Assembly: GCF_011089895.1 (NCBI RefSeq) | Contig: NZ_JAANAT010000001.1 | Location: forward strand, 2,976,001-3,040,000 | Source of the DNA: Mucilaginibacter inviolabilis | Lineage (GTDB): Bacteria > Bacteroidota > Bacteroidia > Sphingobacteriales > Sphingobacteriaceae | Direction of reading: 5' to 3' | DNA length: 64,000 bases | In this document: positions 12,049 to 32,526 of the stretch, piece by piece | Numbering within the stretch: the stretch's first letter is position 1 | Layout: each line of letters starts with the position of its first letter | The notes under the pieces: generated by a model | Seen by the model: only the letters and a program-made list of their open reading frames with translations | The model's database searches: none | What the model was told of the DNA's origin: nothing | Program-made: the position numbers and the translations under genes

Positions 12049-12128
12049 TTGTCATGCTGAGGAACGAAGCATCTGTTATTGAACTTTTGAATCGCAGAAT
12101 AGACCCTTCGCTCCGCTCAGGATGACAA
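12049..12128. repeat. REP-like palindrome (GTCATGCTGA type)
   Basis: Imperfect inverted repeat opening with TTGTCATGCTGAG and closing with CTCAGGATGACAA, with GAAGCAT and CCTTCG inside. At least four further members occur at 36819-36891, 45180-45259, 45274-45347 and 59988-60060. Confidence 0.75.
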
Positions 12129-12158
12129 ATAATTTAACGGTTTTGATCTCCACTCAAA

Positions 12159-12430
12159 TTTTCGTATATTTATAAAAATGCAACAGCCCGGCTTTCTGAT
12201 ATGAAAGCCGGGCTGTTGTATTTAAGAGAAAACAAGACCCCAAAACGGTCGTTTTACATTTAGTTATTTGACAATCAATTATTTAATACTTTTTAAAGTT
12301 TAAAAAAGCCCTCAAAACCACGTTTAAATTTGTTAAAAAGTGTTAAAATCGATGGTTTTGGATCAATTTTCAAGCGTTTTTAGCCCCTTTTTGGCCAGAA
12401 AAATGTTAAAATTTAAGGTTTAAAAAGTTT
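12159..12430 (-). ncRNA. Structured 3' element, copy A (end of SusCD-cytochrome operon)
   Basis: On the minus strand this 272-base stretch begins directly after the stop codon of the last gene of the SusCD operon. It aligns end to end with 32247-32526, which follows a stop codon on the other strand. Shared blocks in order are AAAACTTTTTAAACCTTAAA with TTTTAACA, ATTTTAACACTTTTTAACAA, GGTTTTGAG, AAACTTTAAAAAGTATTAAA, CAAATAACTA, a GC-rich hairpin and ATAAATATACGAAAA. The hairpin at 12181-12218 has a perfect 16-bp stem. Intervening sequence has diverged. It could be a 3'UTR RNA with built-in terminator or a short mobile element. Confidence 0.6.
12181..12218 (-). terminator. GC-rich hairpin closing element A
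   Basis: CAACAGCCCGGCTTTC / GAAAGCCGGGCTGTTG pair perfectly with a six-base loop. On the minus strand it is followed by CATTTTTATAAA. It is the likely terminator of the six-gene operon, and its stem differs from copy B by paired changes. Confidence 0.75.
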
Positions 12431-14005
12431 TTATTTGCTCTTTGAAACAGTCCTTTTGCCGGCATCATTATGCAATACAATAAAAGGTTGGTAAAGGTCC
12501 CAATTGGGTTCCATATCTTTTTGAACCATCAACCCTTTAGCCGTAAATGAAAAATTGCCGAGGATAATATCGGGGTAACCATCATGGTCGATATCATTTA
12601 TATCCATCGCTATCCAGCGGCCATATTGATTGATGGGCAGGGCGTGTACCTTAAACTTGCCTGGAGTAGTTTGCTCATGATAGGTAAAACCTTCTTCTGG
12701 GTAGTACTTAAAATCGGGAAAGAAAGCGATCACTGCGATATCAAGGTCGCCGTCGTGGTCAAAATCGGCAGCTATAGCCTTTGAGCAGCCGTTGATATGG
12801 TAAAAATAGGTCTGCTTAAATTTCCAGTTGCCTTGGTTGGTAAAAATATACACCCCATGATACGGTTTAAATACCGGCGAAAAATCGTTGTTATCGCCAC
12901 AGGTATACACAATATCCAGCAGGCCATCATGATTAAAATCAATCAGTTGAAAACTACTTGAGCCATACACCGAAGGAAAACGCAATAAATTTTGACTGGT
13001 AAAACCGCCTTTTTTATCATTCAGGAACATCCAGATCCCTTCGTCGGCCTGGGCAAAAAGGCAGACAATATCGGGCCAGCCATCGTGGTTAAAATCGCCG
13101 GTAAAAACCTGCGTTGCGCCGGGTAATGCACGTAATATTTTTTTGGTGAACCGGCCTCCGGCCTGCTGTTGCATCACATACAAACCGCCTCTATTGCGCC
13201 CGAAACCGCAGGATACATAGTCAGTAAGCCCATCCCGGTTAAAATCAGCATAAGCGCTTTTTACAGGCCTGGGCAAACTATCAGTGATTAAGGTGGAATC
13301 GTTTTTGGCAGGTTGATTGAGATTAATATTGATCAGCTTTCCTTTCAAAGCATCGCTTGGGGGCAAAAAACCTATACAGGTAATGATCGCTCCATTGGGT
13401 TCGTTCTTTGACTTAAAAAAATTAATATCCGTAACCGGCGACTGGAACTTTTTAACCAGGGTTGCTTGCAGATCACTATTCCACTTGTACAAATTGTTGC
13501 CCGCATTACCTGTATAAATGAAGTTATCATTCGGATTGTAGGCTACCATGGTGGTCATGGCCTGCAAACCTTTACGATTAGTATTTTGGGGTTGCCTGAG
13601 ACTAAATATTGCCCAGTCTTTTACAGCAGTGGGCTTGGGAATGATCAGTTTTTTGGGAGATGTATTTTTATAATATGCCAGTATCTTATACCAGTCTTCC
13701 TTGGACATACTGGTGTTTGCCGATACCAGGTAGTTACCCATAAAACTTTTGAAACCAAATTTTGGGGCCATTGCAGGCATAATGCCTGTTTCCCAGGTAG
13801 CACTGTCCAATAGCGAAGGATCCGGTAGTTGGTGGCAGCTTGAGCAATGGATCGCGGCCAGCTTTTTCCCATCGGCTAAGTACTCTTTATTGCTTTGGGT
13901 ATTGTTGTTATTGCCGGAACAGCTGATGATCAGCATTCCAATACTTAACATTATGGCTTTCAGCAAACACAACCTGTTTACCGGCATCCCGTAGTTTTTA
14001 GTCAT
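12431..14005 (-). CDS. Cytochrome c / FG-GAP repeat lipoprotein (paralogue 2)
   Basis: Predicted surface or periplasmic lipoprotein of 524 residues. A type II signal peptide ends at IISC (lipid Cys 29). One heme-binding motif CSSCH lies at residues 54-58, with MPAM about 20 residues later as possible distal ligand region. The rest is a beta-propeller-like domain with at least five VCBS/FG-GAP calcium loops, for example DFNRDGLTD, DFNHDGWPD, DFNHDGLLD and DFDHDGDLD. It is a close tandem paralogue of the upstream gene. The ATG at 14005 is chosen over the GTG at 14011. It is the last gene of the array. Electron transfer at or outside the outer membrane is inference. Confidence 0.88.
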   Translation of the reverse strand: MTKNYGMPVNRLCLLKAIMLSIGMLIISCSGNNNNTQSNKEYLADGKKLAAIHCSSCHQLPDPSLLDSATWETGIMPAMAPKFGFKSFMGNYLVSANTSMSKEDWYKILAYYKNTSPKKLIIPKPTAVKDWAIFSLRQPQNTNRKGLQAMTTMVAYNPNDNFIYTGNAGNNLYKWNSDLQATLVKKFQSPVTDINFFKSKNEPNGAIITCIGFLPPSDALKGKLININLNQPAKNDSTLITDSLPRPVKSAYADFNRDGLTDYVSCGFGRNRGGLYVMQQQAGGRFTKKILRALPGATQVFTGDFNHDGWPDIVCLFAQADEGIWMFLNDKKGGFTSQNLLRFPSVYGSSSFQLIDFNHDGLLDIVYTCGDNNDFSPVFKPYHGVYIFTNQGNWKFKQTYFYHINGCSKAIAADFDHDGDLDIAVIAFFPDFKYYPEEGFTYHEQTTPGKFKVHALPINQYGRWIAMDINDIDHDGYPDIILGNFSFTAKGLMVQKDMEPNWDLYQPFIVLHNDAGKRTVSKSK

Positions 14006-14053
14006 GTACACTTTTCAATTTTGGCAAACACAAACAGGGTGCAGCTTTTATAC

Positions 14054-26652: not shown

Positions 26653-28965
26653 TTATTTATTCCATTGTACAGAAGCATTATGCGTATCGCTTGAGTTTGT
26701 ACCAATTTCAACAATGAACTTGCCTGGCTCCCAATCATACCTAAGTTGGCTGTTATAAAATTTAAGCTCTTCTGGAGTGATAGTAAATGACACCTCTTTT
26801 TGTTCACCTGGTTGCAGGCTTATCTTTTTAAAACCCTTCAGTTCCTTTACAGACCGGCTTATGCTGGCTACCGGATCGCTGATATACAATTGCACCACCT
26901 CTTCTCCTGCATATTTACCGGTATTGGTAACAGTTACTGTTGCTGTAAGGTTGTCATTACCTTTTAGTGTTGTTTTATTGAGTTTAACATCACTATAGCC
27001 AAAAGTAGTATAGCTTAACCCATAACCAAATGGATAAAGCGGGTCGTTTGAAATATCAAGATAATTTGATTTAAACTTTGATGGCCCGCTGGTATATGGC
27101 CTGCCTGTGTTTTTGTGGTTATAGTAAATAGGTATCTGCCCTACACTGCGTGGAAAGGTAGCGGTAATTTTTCCGGCAGGATTATAATCGCCAAACAGGA
27201 CATCAGCTATAGCATTACCGGCTTCGGTTCCAGGAGCCCAAACATCTAATATAGCGCTGGCATGTTTATCTTCCCAGGTTAAGGTAAGAGGACGGCCATT
27301 AAATAATACAATAACTAATGGTTTACCCAACTTGGCCAGTTCTTTCAGCATATTTTTTTGGCTTTCGGGAATATCAATATCTGAGCGGCTTGATGATTCG
27401 CCCGACATACTTTGTGATTCACCTACCACAGCCACAATTACATCCGATTTTTTAGCAGCTTCAACAGCCTCTTTCAATAATTCATCAGCAGGTTTGGGAT
27501 CAACTGTTACCATCTGCTGACCAAAAAAGTTCAGCCGCTGTATAAATAGGCTATCTTCTGTGATGTTGGCACCTTTGGCATAGTTAATAGTAACGCCATC
27601 ACCAACTACATTCTTAATGCCCTGCATTACACTAATTGATTTTTGCCAATCGCCGGCAACTACCCAGGTGCCCAGCATATCGCGCTGATTATTTGCCAGA
27701 GGACCTACCAGTGCAATGGAACCTGTTTTCTTTAACGGCAGTGTTTGATTACTATTTTTTAACAGCACAAATGAATGCTTGGTGATATTACGTGCTTCCG
27801 TACGATTTTCGGCTGTTAGTACATCTTTAGCTTCGCGGTTTGCATCAATTGACTTATAGGGGTTATCAAATAATCCCAATTTGTATTTGGCCTCCAGCAC
27901 ACGGCGGCATGCCAGGTCAATTTCCTGTTGGGTTACTTTACCGGCGGTTAATGATTTTTTTAATGTAGTTAAAAAGCCTTCGCCTACCATATCCATATCC
28001 AAACCGGCTTTAAGAGCTAACGCTGATACAGTTTGCAGATCACCCAATCCATGCGCTGTCATTTCATTAACAGCGGTATAATCAGATACTACAAAACCTT
28101 TAAAGCCCCATTGTTTACGCAACACATCGGTTAACAACCATTGATTACCTGTGGCCGGCACGCCATCAACTGTATTAAAGGAGCTCATAAAACTACCTGC
28201 TCCCGCATCCACTGCTGCTTTATAAGGAGGCAGATAATCCTGGTACATTTTAATACGGCTCATATCCACCGTGTTATACTCGCGACCAGCTTCGGCACCA
28301 CCATATAAGGCAAAATGTTTTACACAAGCCATCACTGCATCTGCGTTTTTCATGTTATTACCCTGGTAACCTTGCACCATAGCTTTTGCCACCTGCGAAC
28401 CGTACCATGGATCCTCACCCGAACCTTCCGAAATACGCCCCCAGCGTGGATCACGTGCAATATCAACCATAGGTGAGTATACCCAATTCAAACCTTCGGC
28501 GGTAGCCTCTTTAGCCGCGATCTGTGCCGATCGTTTGATCAAATCCATATCCCAACTAGCTGAAAGACCCAGCGGAATTGGAAAAATAGTACGATGCCCG
28601 TGAATCACATCCAATCCAAAAATAAGCGGGATATGTAGCCTGGAGCTTTTTACTGCCAGGTCCTGGATCTGTTTTACCTGATCCGCACCCCATATACCAA
28701 ATACACCTCCAATGGCACCATTTTTTATTTTTTCCTCAACACCTTTATTTACGACTGAACCAGTGGTTGCGGCACCAATAGTTACCAGATTAAGCTGCCC
28801 TATTTTTTCATCAAGGGTCATCTTACTCATTAAACCGGTAACATAAGTATTCATCCTGGTATCCTCAGTTTTGGTTTGGGCTGATGCTTTATAAAAGGGG
28901 ATCAATGCCACAAAACAAAGCGGGATAACCTTGTTGGTGATTCGGGTTGAAAAACACTTTTTCAT
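26653..28965 (-). CDS. bglX: Glycoside hydrolase family 3 beta-glucosidase
   Basis: Periplasmic beta-glucosidase of 770 residues, close to BglX length. A signal peptide ending KASAQ is followed by the GH3 N-terminal barrel with KHFALYGGAEAGREYNTVDM and the nucleophile Asp in GFVVSDYTAVNEM. The C-terminal alpha/beta sandwich carries the likely acid/base Glu in VVGESQSMSGESSSRSD. A fibronectin III-like domain closes the protein (about residues 670-760). It cleaves terminal beta-linked glucose from oligosaccharides. It is transcribed divergently from the Nudix-type regulator, which is therefore its probable controller. The BglX name rests on architecture and length; xylosidase side activity cannot be excluded. 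Confidence 0.9.
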   Translation of the reverse strand: MKKCFSTRITNKVIPLCFVALIPFYKASAQTKTEDTRMNTYVTGLMSKMTLDEKIGQLNLVTIGAATTGSVVNKGVEEKIKNGAIGGVFGIWGADQVKQIQDLAVKSSRLHIPLIFGLDVIHGHRTIFPIPLGLSASWDMDLIKRSAQIAAKEATAEGLNWVYSPMVDIARDPRWGRISEGSGEDPWYGSQVAKAMVQGYQGNNMKNADAVMACVKHFALYGGAEAGREYNTVDMSRIKMYQDYLPPYKAAVDAGAGSFMSSFNTVDGVPATGNQWLLTDVLRKQWGFKGFVVSDYTAVNEMTAHGLGDLQTVSALALKAGLDMDMVGEGFLTTLKKSLTAGKVTQQEIDLACRRVLEAKYKLGLFDNPYKSIDANREAKDVLTAENRTEARNITKHSFVLLKNSNQTLPLKKTGSIALVGPLANNQRDMLGTWVVAGDWQKSISVMQGIKNVVGDGVTINYAKGANITEDSLFIQRLNFFGQQMVTVDPKPADELLKEAVEAAKKSDVIVAVVGESQSMSGESSSRSDIDIPESQKNMLKELAKLGKPLVIVLFNGRPLTLTWEDKHASAILDVWAPGTEAGNAIADVLFGDYNPAGKITATFPRSVGQIPIYYNHKNTGRPYTSGPSKFKSNYLDISNDPLYPFGYGLSYTTFGYSDVKLNKTTLKGNDNLTATVTVTNTGKYAGEEVVQLYISDPVASISRSVKELKGFKKISLQPGEQKEVSFTITPEELKFYNSQLRYDWEPGKFIVEIGTNSSDTHNASVQWNK

Positions 28966-30380: not shown

Positions 30381-32246
30381 ATGCTTAACATCAAAAAATT
30401 ACTCGCAATAGTACTCTTATCCGGCAGTACCATTTCTTACGCGCAGGTTAACCTACCGATAGCCTTAAATCTGCAAAATACGTATACCAAAGGAACGCGC
30501 ACCAAAGCAGGAGCCCCCGGGAAAAACTACTGGCAAAATACTGCCGACTACCATATCAAAGTAAGCTTTGACCCCAAAAGCCGGAATATTGCCGGCACAG
30601 TGGCTATTGATTATGCCAATAACAGCCCGGATACGCTTAGCACAGTTCTGTTTAAGCTTTACCCTAATTTATACAAAAAAGGGGCGATTCGTGATATGCC
30701 TGTATCTGCTCAAGACCTTACCGATGGCGTACATATCAAATCAATCAGCGTTAATAACCAATTACAGGACAGCACCAAACATCGTATTGAAGGTACCAAT
30801 ATGATGCTGAACGCTCATTTAGCACCCGGGCAAAAGACTCATTTTGATATCGAGTATGCTTATACCCTCAACAAAACATCACATATACGTACCGGGCAAA
30901 TTGATACCGGAGCTTTCTTTGTGGCCTATTTTTTCCCGCGTATAGCCGTTTATGACGATATTGACGGCTGGAACGAATTTCCCTACCTGGGCTCGCAGGA
31001 GTTTTACAACGATTTTTGCCATTTTAATGCCGAGATCACCGTACCTGGCAATTACCAGGTTTGGGCTACAGGAAACCTCAAAAACCCCGAACAGGTGTAT
31101 AACCCCAAATATGTAAAACTGATAAACCAGGCAAGCATCAGCGATAAGATAACCGATATTATTACCCAAGCCGATGTTGAGGCTGCTGATATCGCCAGGA
31201 ACAATCCTACCAATACCTGGAAATTTGAAGCCGACAGCGTTACTGACCTTGTTTTTGCTATCAGCAACCATTATATCTGGAAGGCATCAAGTTTAGTGGT
31301 CGATACCAAAACTAATCGCCGCACGCGTGTTGATGCCGTTTTTAATCCTGCACATAAGGATTATTTTGAGGTAGTGAACTACGCCCGTAAAACAGTAGAA
31401 ACGATGAGCTATCAGTTTCCGAAATGGCCATATCCCTACCCGCATGAAACCGTATTTGACGGGCTCGACCAAATGGAATACCCGATGATGGTGAACGATA
31501 ATCCATTAGAAAACACCGCCGATGCTATTGAATTGACCGACCATGAAATATTTCACACCATGTTTCCTTTTTACATGGGCACCAACGAAACCAAGTATGG
31601 CTGGATGGACGAAGGCTGGGCCACCATTGGCGAATGGCTTATCAGTCCGGTTATCGACCCCAGCATCGTGGATCCTTATGGCGTTGCAGCAACAGAAAAC
31701 AGCGCTGGCATTGAGCAGGATGTGCCTGTCATGACCCTAACCCCTCAGCTTACCGGCGTTTCAAAATTTACAGATAGCTACCCTAAACCCGGTCTGGGCT
31801 ATTTATATGTCAAAGATATGCTGGGCGATGAGCTGTTTACCAAAGCCTTACATTACTATATTAGCCAATGGCATGGTAAACACCCAATGCCCTACGATTT
31901 TTTCAACTGTATCAATACCGGTTCGGGCATTAACCTTAACTGGTTTTGGAAAAGCTGGTTCTTTGACAACGGGCAGCCTAACCTGGCTATCAGCAAAGTA
32001 AGCCATCAACAACAAAAATATAGTGTGACCATTACCAGCATCGGTACCAAGCCTGTACCCATTAACCTCACTGTATATTATCAGGATGGCAGTTCGCAGC
32101 TGGTGCATCAGAGCATTGCTTGCTGGGCCAAAGGCAACAAAACCACCAATGTTACCTTCGCGGCTAAAAAGCCAGTTAAACAAATGGTGCTAGGCACTAC
32201 CTATGATCCGGACACAGATAAAAAAGATAACATCTGGAAACCATGA
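30381..32246 (+). CDS. M1-family zinc metallopeptidase, secreted
   Basis: Aminopeptidase N-like enzyme of 621 residues with signal peptide (ISYAQ end, about residue 22). The zinc site is intact: HEIFH at residues 388-392, with the third ligand Glu 18 residues later in YGWMDEGWA. A QMEYP segment about 25 residues before the zinc motif stands in for the usual GxMEN exopeptidase motif, as in many Bacteroidota M1 homologues. It should remove N-terminal residues from peptides in the periplasm or outside. It is monocistronic; element B starts immediately after its stop codon. Confidence 0.92.
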   Translation: MLNIKKLLAIVLLSGSTISYAQVNLPIALNLQNTYTKGTRTKAGAPGKNYWQNTADYHIKVSFDPKSRNIAGTVAIDYANNSPDTLSTVLFKLYPNLYKKGAIRDMPVSAQDLTDGVHIKSISVNNQLQDSTKHRIEGTNMMLNAHLAPGQKTHFDIEYAYTLNKTSHIRTGQIDTGAFFVAYFFPRIAVYDDIDGWNEFPYLGSQEFYNDFCHFNAEITVPGNYQVWATGNLKNPEQVYNPKYVKLINQASISDKITDIITQADVEAADIARNNPTNTWKFEADSVTDLVFAISNHYIWKASSLVVDTKTNRRTRVDAVFNPAHKDYFEVVNYARKTVETMSYQFPKWPYPYPHETVFDGLDQMEYPMMVNDNPLENTADAIELTDHEIFHTMFPFYMGTNETKYGWMDEGWATIGEWLISPVIDPSIVDPYGVAATENSAGIEQDVPVMTLTPQLTGVSKFTDSYPKPGLGYLYVKDMLGDELFTKALHYYISQWHGKHPMPYDFFNCINTGSGINLNWFWKSWFFDNGQPNLAISKVSHQQQKYSVTITSIGTKPVPINLTVYYQDGSSQLVHQSIACWAKGNKTTNVTFAAKKPVKQMVLGTTYDPDTDKKDNIWKP

Positions 32247-32526
32247 TCAAAAACTTTTTAAACCTTAAATTTTAACAATTTTTCGATCAAAATCGGGTAA
32301 AAATCATTCAAAAACTACTCAAAAAACCCTCATTTTAACACTTTTTAACAAATTAAAACCCGGTTTTGAGTAGTTTTTGAAACTTTAAAAAGTATTAAAT
32401 ATCTAATTATCAAATAACTACACACCAAACAGTTGATTTTCGACCTTGTTTTGGTGTTAACAAAACAGCCCGGTTTTTTCCCAAAAGAGAAAACCGGGCT
32501 GTTGATTGATATAAATATACGAAAAA
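32247..32526 (+). ncRNA. Structured 3' element, copy B (after M1 peptidase)
   Basis: This 280-base stretch starts at the base after the peptidase stop codon and aligns along its whole length with the minus strand of 12159-12430. It contains a perfect 18-bp inverted repeat (32307-32324 with 32364-32381, arm TTCAAAAACTACTCAAAA). The conserved ATTTTAACACTTTTTAACAA lies in that loop. Outer blocks CTTTTTAAA and TTTAAAAAG could pair at long range. It ends with a GC-rich hairpin and ATAAATATACGAAAA. No reading frame is conserved between copies. Confidence 0.6.
32464..32503 (+). terminator. GC-rich hairpin closing element B
   Basis: AACAGCCCGGTTTT pairs with AAAACCGGGCTGTT, and the stem can extend to 17 pairs with one G-U, closing a six-base loop. 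Compared with copy A, the upper stem differs by paired substitutions (CTTTC/GAAAG against TTTTTC/GAGAAA), which supports an RNA structure. Confidence 0.75.

Follow-up and report, generated by a model that had tools for sequence, protein, structure and literature searches.

ERIC-type repeats are intergenic, occur in many copies and share a conserved core; we know of no phased tracts and no promoter of their own in them, and on this description they would differ from the element considered here. REPs are palindromes of 20–40 bp (PMC3733652), and BIME-2 units are sites of DNA gyrase in Escherichia coli (PMC6379681). The element resembles REPs and BIMEs in its many dispersed intergenic copies with a palindrome, but differs in its length of about 300 bp, its single hairpin, its curved module and its sites, which are fixed between species; being a ~300-bp unit with one hairpin rather than a 20–40 bp palindromic unit, it was not assigned to them. 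A recent survey of REPs mentions gyrase and Bacteroidota, and Mucilaginibacter was not found in the part of it consulted (PMC12306157).

The closest physical match to the element, which is known here from its sequence alone, would be the gyrase motif of E. coli, described in the section of the source used here as spanning 130 bp with periodic arms of 10.75 bp (PMC6379681). The likeness lies in the 130-bp span and in a period of 10.7–10.8 bp, set against AT/GC arms of ~10.75 bp. The gyrase motif is, in the same part of that source, degenerate and has a non-periodic centre of 36 bp, whereas the letters of the element's blocks are conserved; no non-periodic centre was found in its module, where the tracts run through with one weaker slot in class I. 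A second relevant system is FopS of Bacteroides, reported in the portion of the source consulted as 14 paralogous small RNAs of ~65–70 nt with sigma-ABfr promoters (PMC11697453). Both are paralogous non-coding units of the same phylum with a sigma-ABfr promoter, which in the element is putative, and they differ in that FopS has 14 members of ~65–70 nt and the element ~107 units of ~300 bp with phased tracts.

No description of the element family was found in the searches made of openly licensed papers. Nothing in the window (the whole 64,000-nucleotide stretch of Mucilaginibacter DNA that was analysed) scored at a gathering threshold of Rfam, the low-threshold matches all lying far below the gathering scores, and a known RNA family was rejected on this ground; the family may still be called undescribed, as originally supposed.

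Two copies of the element in the window

The original prediction described two diverged copies of a structured element, and these can indeed be aligned end to end, with the blocks as described, between the minus strand at about 12159–12432 and the plus strand at 32247–32526. The direction in which they were read there is called the reading orientation below. The two copies have the following parts.

12142..12432, plus strand as the likely transcribed strand (reading orientation minus): copy 1, whole element, about 291 bp
12142..12145, plus strand: copy 1, -33 box TTTG, separated by a 19-nt spacer from the -7 box; fits the sigma-ABfr consensus as given in part of PMC7366714
12165..12172, plus strand: copy 1, -7-like box TATATTTA, consensus TAnnTTTG with a deviating final base
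12181..12218, plus strand: copy 1, covarying GC hairpin, at the 5' end of the predicted transcript
12283..12432, minus strand (reading orientation): copy 1, curved module
12417..12427, minus strand (reading orientation): copy 1, module block 1, CTTTTTAAACC
12327..12348, minus strand (reading orientation): copy 1, module core 22-mer
12283..12297, minus strand (reading orientation): copy 1, module block 3, TTTAAAAAGTATTAA
32247..32542, minus strand as the likely transcribed strand (reading orientation plus): copy 2, whole element, right end placed by analogy with the family
32250..32398, plus strand (reading orientation): copy 2, curved module
32254..32264, plus strand (reading orientation): copy 2, module block 1
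32333..32354, plus strand (reading orientation): copy 2, module core
32384..32398, plus strand (reading orientation): copy 2, module block 3
32464..32503, minus strand: copy 2, covarying GC hairpin
32512..32519, minus strand: copy 2, -7-like box TATATTTA, read from the sequence, with no TTG at the expected -33 place

Copy 1 starts inside the stop codon of the ORF at 12431–14011 (minus strand) and copy 2 directly after the TGA of the ORF at 30381–32246 (plus strand). The proposal that the element sits right after a stop codon, in the sense of the gene, is therefore correct for the two window copies; it does not extend to the family, in which a sense gene lies upstream in only 28 of 86 copies. 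The gene before copy 2, named as an M1 peptidase, has the Pfam domain Peptidase_M1. Beside copy 1 a SusCD/cytochrome operon had been proposed, and Pfam recognises FG-GAP, PAP2, SusD and SusC/TonB-receptor domains there, with no cytochrome domain in the six ORFs scanned (26653–28965 excluded). The terminal hairpin is present as reported, but the 3' limit is not, since conservation continues for ~20–24 bases beyond it. Many further homologues occur in the same genome and in relatives: the original observation is confirmed and much larger than reported, and its interpretation is partly supported.

A family of about a hundred copies

The genome that contains the window (7.15 Mb in 13 contigs, hereafter the own genome) holds ~107 copies of the element. 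The core 22-mer, TTTTAACACTTTTTAACAAATT, has 107 matches in it at three mismatches or fewer (49 forward, 58 reverse) against two for the reversed control, a number well above what chance would give, and is exact in 93 of the 100 genome matches listed. A blastn search of the own genome with copy 1 gave at least 40 copies at 77–100% identity and two short reverse matches, taken from the best 40 of 170 candidates. A profile search of 1.507 Mb of own DNA, made up of the window and 80 stretches around 22-mer sites, found 86 copies at 80 bits or more, and a second, sequence-only model found the same 86 together with a regulatory region (L091) and 15 weak matches of elements to their own opposite strand; it detected no truncated leftovers of the element in the 1.507 Mb. 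The element is a dispersed, non-coding chromosomal unit of ~300 bp, with around a hundred copies per carrier genome.

Architecture of the curved module

The module, ~145 bp long, is framed by inverted copies of ACTTTTTAAA at a distance of about 130 bp, blocks 1 and 3 being inverted copies of one another in the alignment. The two blocks are 129–131 nt apart in 85 of the 86 own copies and in 107 of 112 copies from relatives, and the distance from the core to block 1 is 79 nt in 51 own copies and 89–90 nt in 35; the core occupies two positions one helical turn apart while the total module length stays fixed. The weak opposite-strand matches, 15 in number and involving many own copies, show the module to be quasi-palindromic.

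In 73 orthologous pairs, whose flanking genes are mostly 80–95% identical, identity is 96.3% in conserved columns, 77.0% in intermediate and 62.9% in variable ones, the corresponding values among own paralogues being 94.5%, 65.4% and 40.1%. The core register is shifted by one helical turn in 11 orthologous pairs, in which identity is paralogue-like in the left module (0.45, 0.38 and 0.45) and orthologue-like in the right part and the hairpin (0.66 and 0.77); we read these pairs as the outcome of gene conversion of the module between copies.

The A/T tracts recur with a period of 10.8 bp (power 0.224 vs 0.020 in shuffles, 82 copies). The tract slots lie 10–11 bp apart and were derived from these very sequences; 2445 of 2509 (97%) are filled, against 506 of 2316 midpoints, and the midpoints that are filled lie mostly at a few fixed places, for example AACAAAT of the core. 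The curvature ratio, predicted with one wedge model, has a median of 1.86 (5–95%: 1.46–2.41) in 82 copies, compared with 1.12 in shuffles and 1.07–1.08 in the flanks. Elements account for 68 of the 71 curvature peaks of at least 1.7 in the own DNA read and for 78 of the 84 of at least 1.5, and 78 of the 86 elements have a peak at the latter level.

A and T tracts are interchangeable at several slots (T18/A14 at one class II slot), and in orthologous pairs 39 slots switch between A and T, with 37 more filled in a single partner; part of this interchange stems from module swaps between copies. Since TTTT in place of AAAA leaves the bend intact and changes every letter, the pattern is most simply read as selection on curvature, and the module looks as if it has been selected as DNA for strong intrinsic curvature. 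DNA shape is not everything, as the letters of the blocks are conserved too.

Strong curvature is also not unique to carriers of the element. A 400-kb sample of the related genome G324 has seven peaks of at least 1.5, with partial relatives of the module's 5' half at three of them, and peaks outside the family come to 17.5 per Mb there against 4 outside elements in own DNA. In G324, L302:8986-9110 and L302:11516-11636 are such partial relatives, strongly curved and without the hairpin, placed on either side of a cluster that we take, by eye, to consist of LysR-type, reductase-like and ferredoxin-like genes. A further curved region, with TGTTAAAA repeats, is found upstream of a conserved AraC-family gene that follows zwf-pgl (L091:8990-9140, L294:6689-6800, L304-L333); in carriers and some sisters its curvature is kept as its letters change. 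This region is not the element, and the AraC-family protein as a possible binder of the element is a lead only.

The hairpin and the probable transcribed strand

Covariation is strong only in the hairpin. A scan over all 200 rows gave the hairpin a sum of 26.9, and the best stem elsewhere (9.1) falls at columns where the tract register slides; none was found in the ~210-nt body of own copies. The paired changes noted in the upper stem are borne out, pair 11 being formed in 71 of 80 own hairpins, where shuffles reach 51 at most.

Upstream of the hairpin on the opposite strand lies a box that fits the sigma-ABfr consensus, given in the parts of the sources consulted as TTTG/TAnnTTTG (PMC7366714; PMC9723704), and is a putative promoter. 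On that strand 20 of 73 own copies and 31 of 99 from relatives have TTG at a distance of exactly 23 nt ahead of TATnTTT, other offsets occurring 0–3 times, and TTG-N18-22-TATNTTT is present in 26 of 86 right ends where ~0.7 would be expected. The strict form, TTG-N18-22-TAnnTTTG, is present in only 4 of 86; of 172 copies, 107 have A and 58 have G as the final base of the -7 box. Identity between orthologues drops from 0.67 at -24 to 0.41 at -26, and nine copies from a sister clade keep the -7-like box, with TTG at -23 in none of the nine.

Mismatches in the stem are C.A rather than G.T by 60:22 in own copies and 64:22 in relatives. On the opposite strand the C.A mismatches read as G.U, which is what an RNA from that strand would lead one to expect, and the RNA strand is probably the one opposite to the reading orientation. 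The bias persists at hairpins into which no gene is read (20:8, p 0.036) and is weaker in single contexts (p 0.34 in SS, 0.096 in AS). The strand bias of the mismatches was also the ground for rejecting the idea that the hairpin exists solely as a DNA cruciform. The 8 nt after the hairpin contain on average 5.22 T on the opposite strand and 4.17 in the reading orientation.

Genomic context

With genes called by a simple ORF caller (at least 90 aa), none of the 86 copies lies inside an ORF, a few overlap a gene end, and the orientations of their neighbours are AA in 35, AS in 23, SA in 16 and SS in 12. The upstream sense gene, where there is one, is mostly within 30 nt. The hairpin side faces a gene end in 51 of 86 copies, and in co-directional gaps antisense copies outnumber sense ones 35:12 (p 0.0011). 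Divergent genes surround 23 copies and convergent genes 16, the latter about the background share (194 of 1186 gaps). Neighbouring genes have a TAnnTTTG box of their own in 9 of 43 cases (background 22%) and a two-box match in 2 of 43 (background 11%); a role as promoter or leader of the neighbouring gene was rejected, neighbours keeping their own -7 boxes at the background rate.

Close pairs of elements are scarce among the 100 listed positions of the 107 used for the spacing test: five gaps are shorter than 15 kb where 18.5 are expected, a number as low in none of 2000 random sets, and three are shorter than 10 kb where 12.8 are expected. Overall evenness of spacing is not significant in the same test (CV 0.88 vs 0.99, P 0.12), and loss by recombination between near copies could be an alternative cause of the few close pairs.

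The 84 own copies outside the window are oriented against the local sign of GC skew in 54 cases and with it in 30 (p 0.012). A second intergenic repeat, of the GTCATnCTGAGCGGAGCGAAG / GTCATTGCGAGCG type, lies at 12050-12127 of the window; on the hairpin side, 11 of the 86 copies have a repeat of this type no more than 150 nt away (~1.3 expected), and none of the 86 left flanks has one.

Distribution and inheritance

Among 301 genomes of the family Sphingobacteriaceae, the 22-mer at two mismatches or fewer occurs 104 times in the own genome, 127 times in G270 and 80 times in G294, and at most three times in every other (G318 lay outside the sample). At three mismatches or fewer, the own genome has 107, G318 118, G270 130 and G294 89, and five other relatives have 3–9. 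A scan of named genomes gave at least 118 loci from Mucilaginibacter lappiensis ATCC BAA-1855, M. sp. OK268 and M. sp. SG564, and at least two from a Bacteroidales MAG; of the 118 Mucilaginibacter loci listed, 114 hold the element at 60 bits or more and four gave no profile match at that level. Searches of 16 genomes with a model of the module (E <= 0.01) gave 118, 126, 131 and 113 matches in the four carriers, 24 in G301, 18 in G324, seven in G213, two in G321, one each in G089 and G305 and none in six genomes, counts that may include weak opposite-strand self-matches (15 in 102 in own DNA). In a tree of the M1 peptidase from 30 genomes the four carriers group together (100/100), three low-copy genomes form its sister clade (94/92), and the two are joined at 99/94.

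Collections of plasmids and phages gave no match to the element, and a plasmid or phage element was rejected on this basis; three viral contigs and two Bacteroidales MAG contigs have a lone 22-mer without the element (L227 by profile search only). In non-carrier genomes of the family (L234-L236, L248-L250), single sites resembling the 22-mer, with 1–2 mismatches, are found repeatedly ahead of the same ORFs, a pattern suggestive of a conserved binding site.

Downstream of the M1 peptidase, all four carriers have the element at the identical nucleotide, and none of the 26 other loci examined has it. Of 114 relative copies, 58 could be placed in own DNA by both flanks, 26 had a match to one flank, two had their flanks apart and 28 had no match. 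All 58 of the first group lie at the same site in the same orientation, with 0 absences, in DNA that was selected around elements and in which an absence far from any own element is invisible. Of the 26 with a match to one flank, 16 point to a place no more than 600 nt from an own element and 10 do not, some of these through partial or short, repeat-like matches. Ten loci of the sister clade, out of 49 matches, were examined and comprise nine full elements and one partial. At nine of the ten the left flank predicts the edge of a carrier element within 0–23 nt, two of the nine being the same site in two genomes; the right flank matches as closely in only one case. A G324 stretch has three carrier sites that are empty, with gaps of 87–117 nt; at a fourth carrier site, which is not counted among the empty ones, the gap is 1925 nt. 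Sister flanks that match carrier sites, together with the empty sites in G324, indicate that some sites are ancestral and that others were gained by carriers or lost in G324.

There is no signal of target duplication at the edges of the element (p 0.31) and no terminal inverted repeat in the sequence at its outer ends, the inverted blocks bounding the module and not the element. The fixed sites (58/58 placeable copies), the lack of a duplication signal and the lack of leftovers in 1.507 Mb make present mobility unlikely, but three carrier sites are empty in G324; an active transposon was rejected on these grounds, and the mobile element targeting gene ends that had been offered as one interpretation is not supported. 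The element appears to be vertically inherited, and a group of soil bacteria seems to have retained it at unchanged chromosomal positions over a long period.

Possible functions of the element

The explanation we tentatively prefer is that the element combines a curved DNA-shape module with a small transcription unit and acts, through a protein that wraps it, as a dispersed topological or architectural anchor. Its first part would be the ~145-bp module, with A/T tracts in helical phase and a core that moves by a whole helical turn only, and its second a predicted small transcription unit on the opposite strand, in which a sigma-ABfr-like promoter is followed immediately by the GC hairpin. A putative wrapping or bending protein would bind the module through its repeated TTTTAAC(A) sites and inverted ends, and the bound module would fold into a tight loop; the hairpin may serve as terminator or insulator, and such loops, set at intervals, may anchor the chromosome topologically or architecturally. 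Candidate binders are DNA gyrase, another nucleoid protein and a response regulator. In its most specific form the proposal, possible but somewhat doubtful, is of about a hundred dedicated DNA-shape sites, each a pre-bent loop of 145 bp with tract phase selected over letters and a promoter–hairpin of its own, forming spaced anchor or loading sites for gyrase or another wrapping protein. Against an anchor it can be said that an architectural site needs no promoter, and that the element occurs in a single clade only, three of its carrier sites being empty in G324.

That the copies are instead multicopy genes for a small RNA, either a hairpin RNA of ~45 nt from the opposite strand or one of ~270 nt with a 5' hairpin, acting in trans like FopS, is rather unlikely, although the promoter-like box has a fixed place, the hairpin covaries with G.U of the opposite strand even where no gene reads in, contexts are independent of the neighbours, and FopS, as far as the source consulted describes it, provides a precedent of 14 paralogous small RNAs from sigma-ABfr promoters (PMC11697453). 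The ~210-nt body of own copies lacks covariation, A/T interchange and whole-turn slides would make no sense for an RNA, the strict promoter occurs in 4 of 86 copies, and more than 100 near-equal copies are far above FopS. The facing of gene ends by the hairpin side (51/86), the antisense excess in co-directional gaps and the additional T residues after the hairpin on the opposite strand would all suit a transcription insulator cassette, a terminator hairpin with an AT-rich spacer whose curvature is a by-product or an aid to polymerase release; yet the 23 of 86 copies between divergent genes would have no transcription to stop, a terminator needs no phased module of 130 bp, and we consider a cassette of this kind distinctly unlikely.

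We think it improbable that the family is what remains of a MITE-like element, now extinct, that had a single phase of spread and has since been drifting. Such a past would agree with the uniform length of the scattered copies, with their spread inside one clade and with the three sites empty in G324, but the blocks resist change 10-fold relative to the spacers, and purifying selection on them argues against pure drift; truncated copies in 1.507 Mb, a target duplication signal (p 0.31) and terminal inverted repeats at the outer ends are also lacking. A giant regulon, in which the TTAACA-N4-TTAACA direct repeat is the operator of one transcription factor controlling the neighbours, is very unlikely. 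The 22-mer, whose direct repeat may be a box of the OmpR/PhoB type, does resemble boxes present singly at 1–3 per genome in non-carriers, several of them upstream of ORFs, but convergent genes enclose 16 of the 86 copies, close to the background share, and the neighbours' own TAnnTTTG boxes are at the background rate (9/43 vs 22%). The sense 3'UTR RNA family with a built-in terminator, put forward in the original prediction, holds for the two window copies and would suit the 28 of 86 that follow a sense gene, mostly within 30 nt; it was abandoned as highly improbable, given that 58 of 86 have no sense gene upstream and neighbours face every way, that the body lacks covariation, and that the promoter-like box and the G.U bias favour the other strand.

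Significance

The anatomy of the element is solid, and its function is what we infer. The physiological role of helically phased A-tracts in prokaryotes is described as 'not clear' in the part of the literature consulted (PMC3940949). Here a single genome supplies around a hundred versions of one compact and strongly curved sequence; A/T interchange, whole-turn slides and the fixed length allow selection for phase to be distinguished from selection for letters; and the genus includes both carrier and non-carrier species. Together these features make a function of DNA shape directly testable, with the curved module as bait for the protein that would read it.
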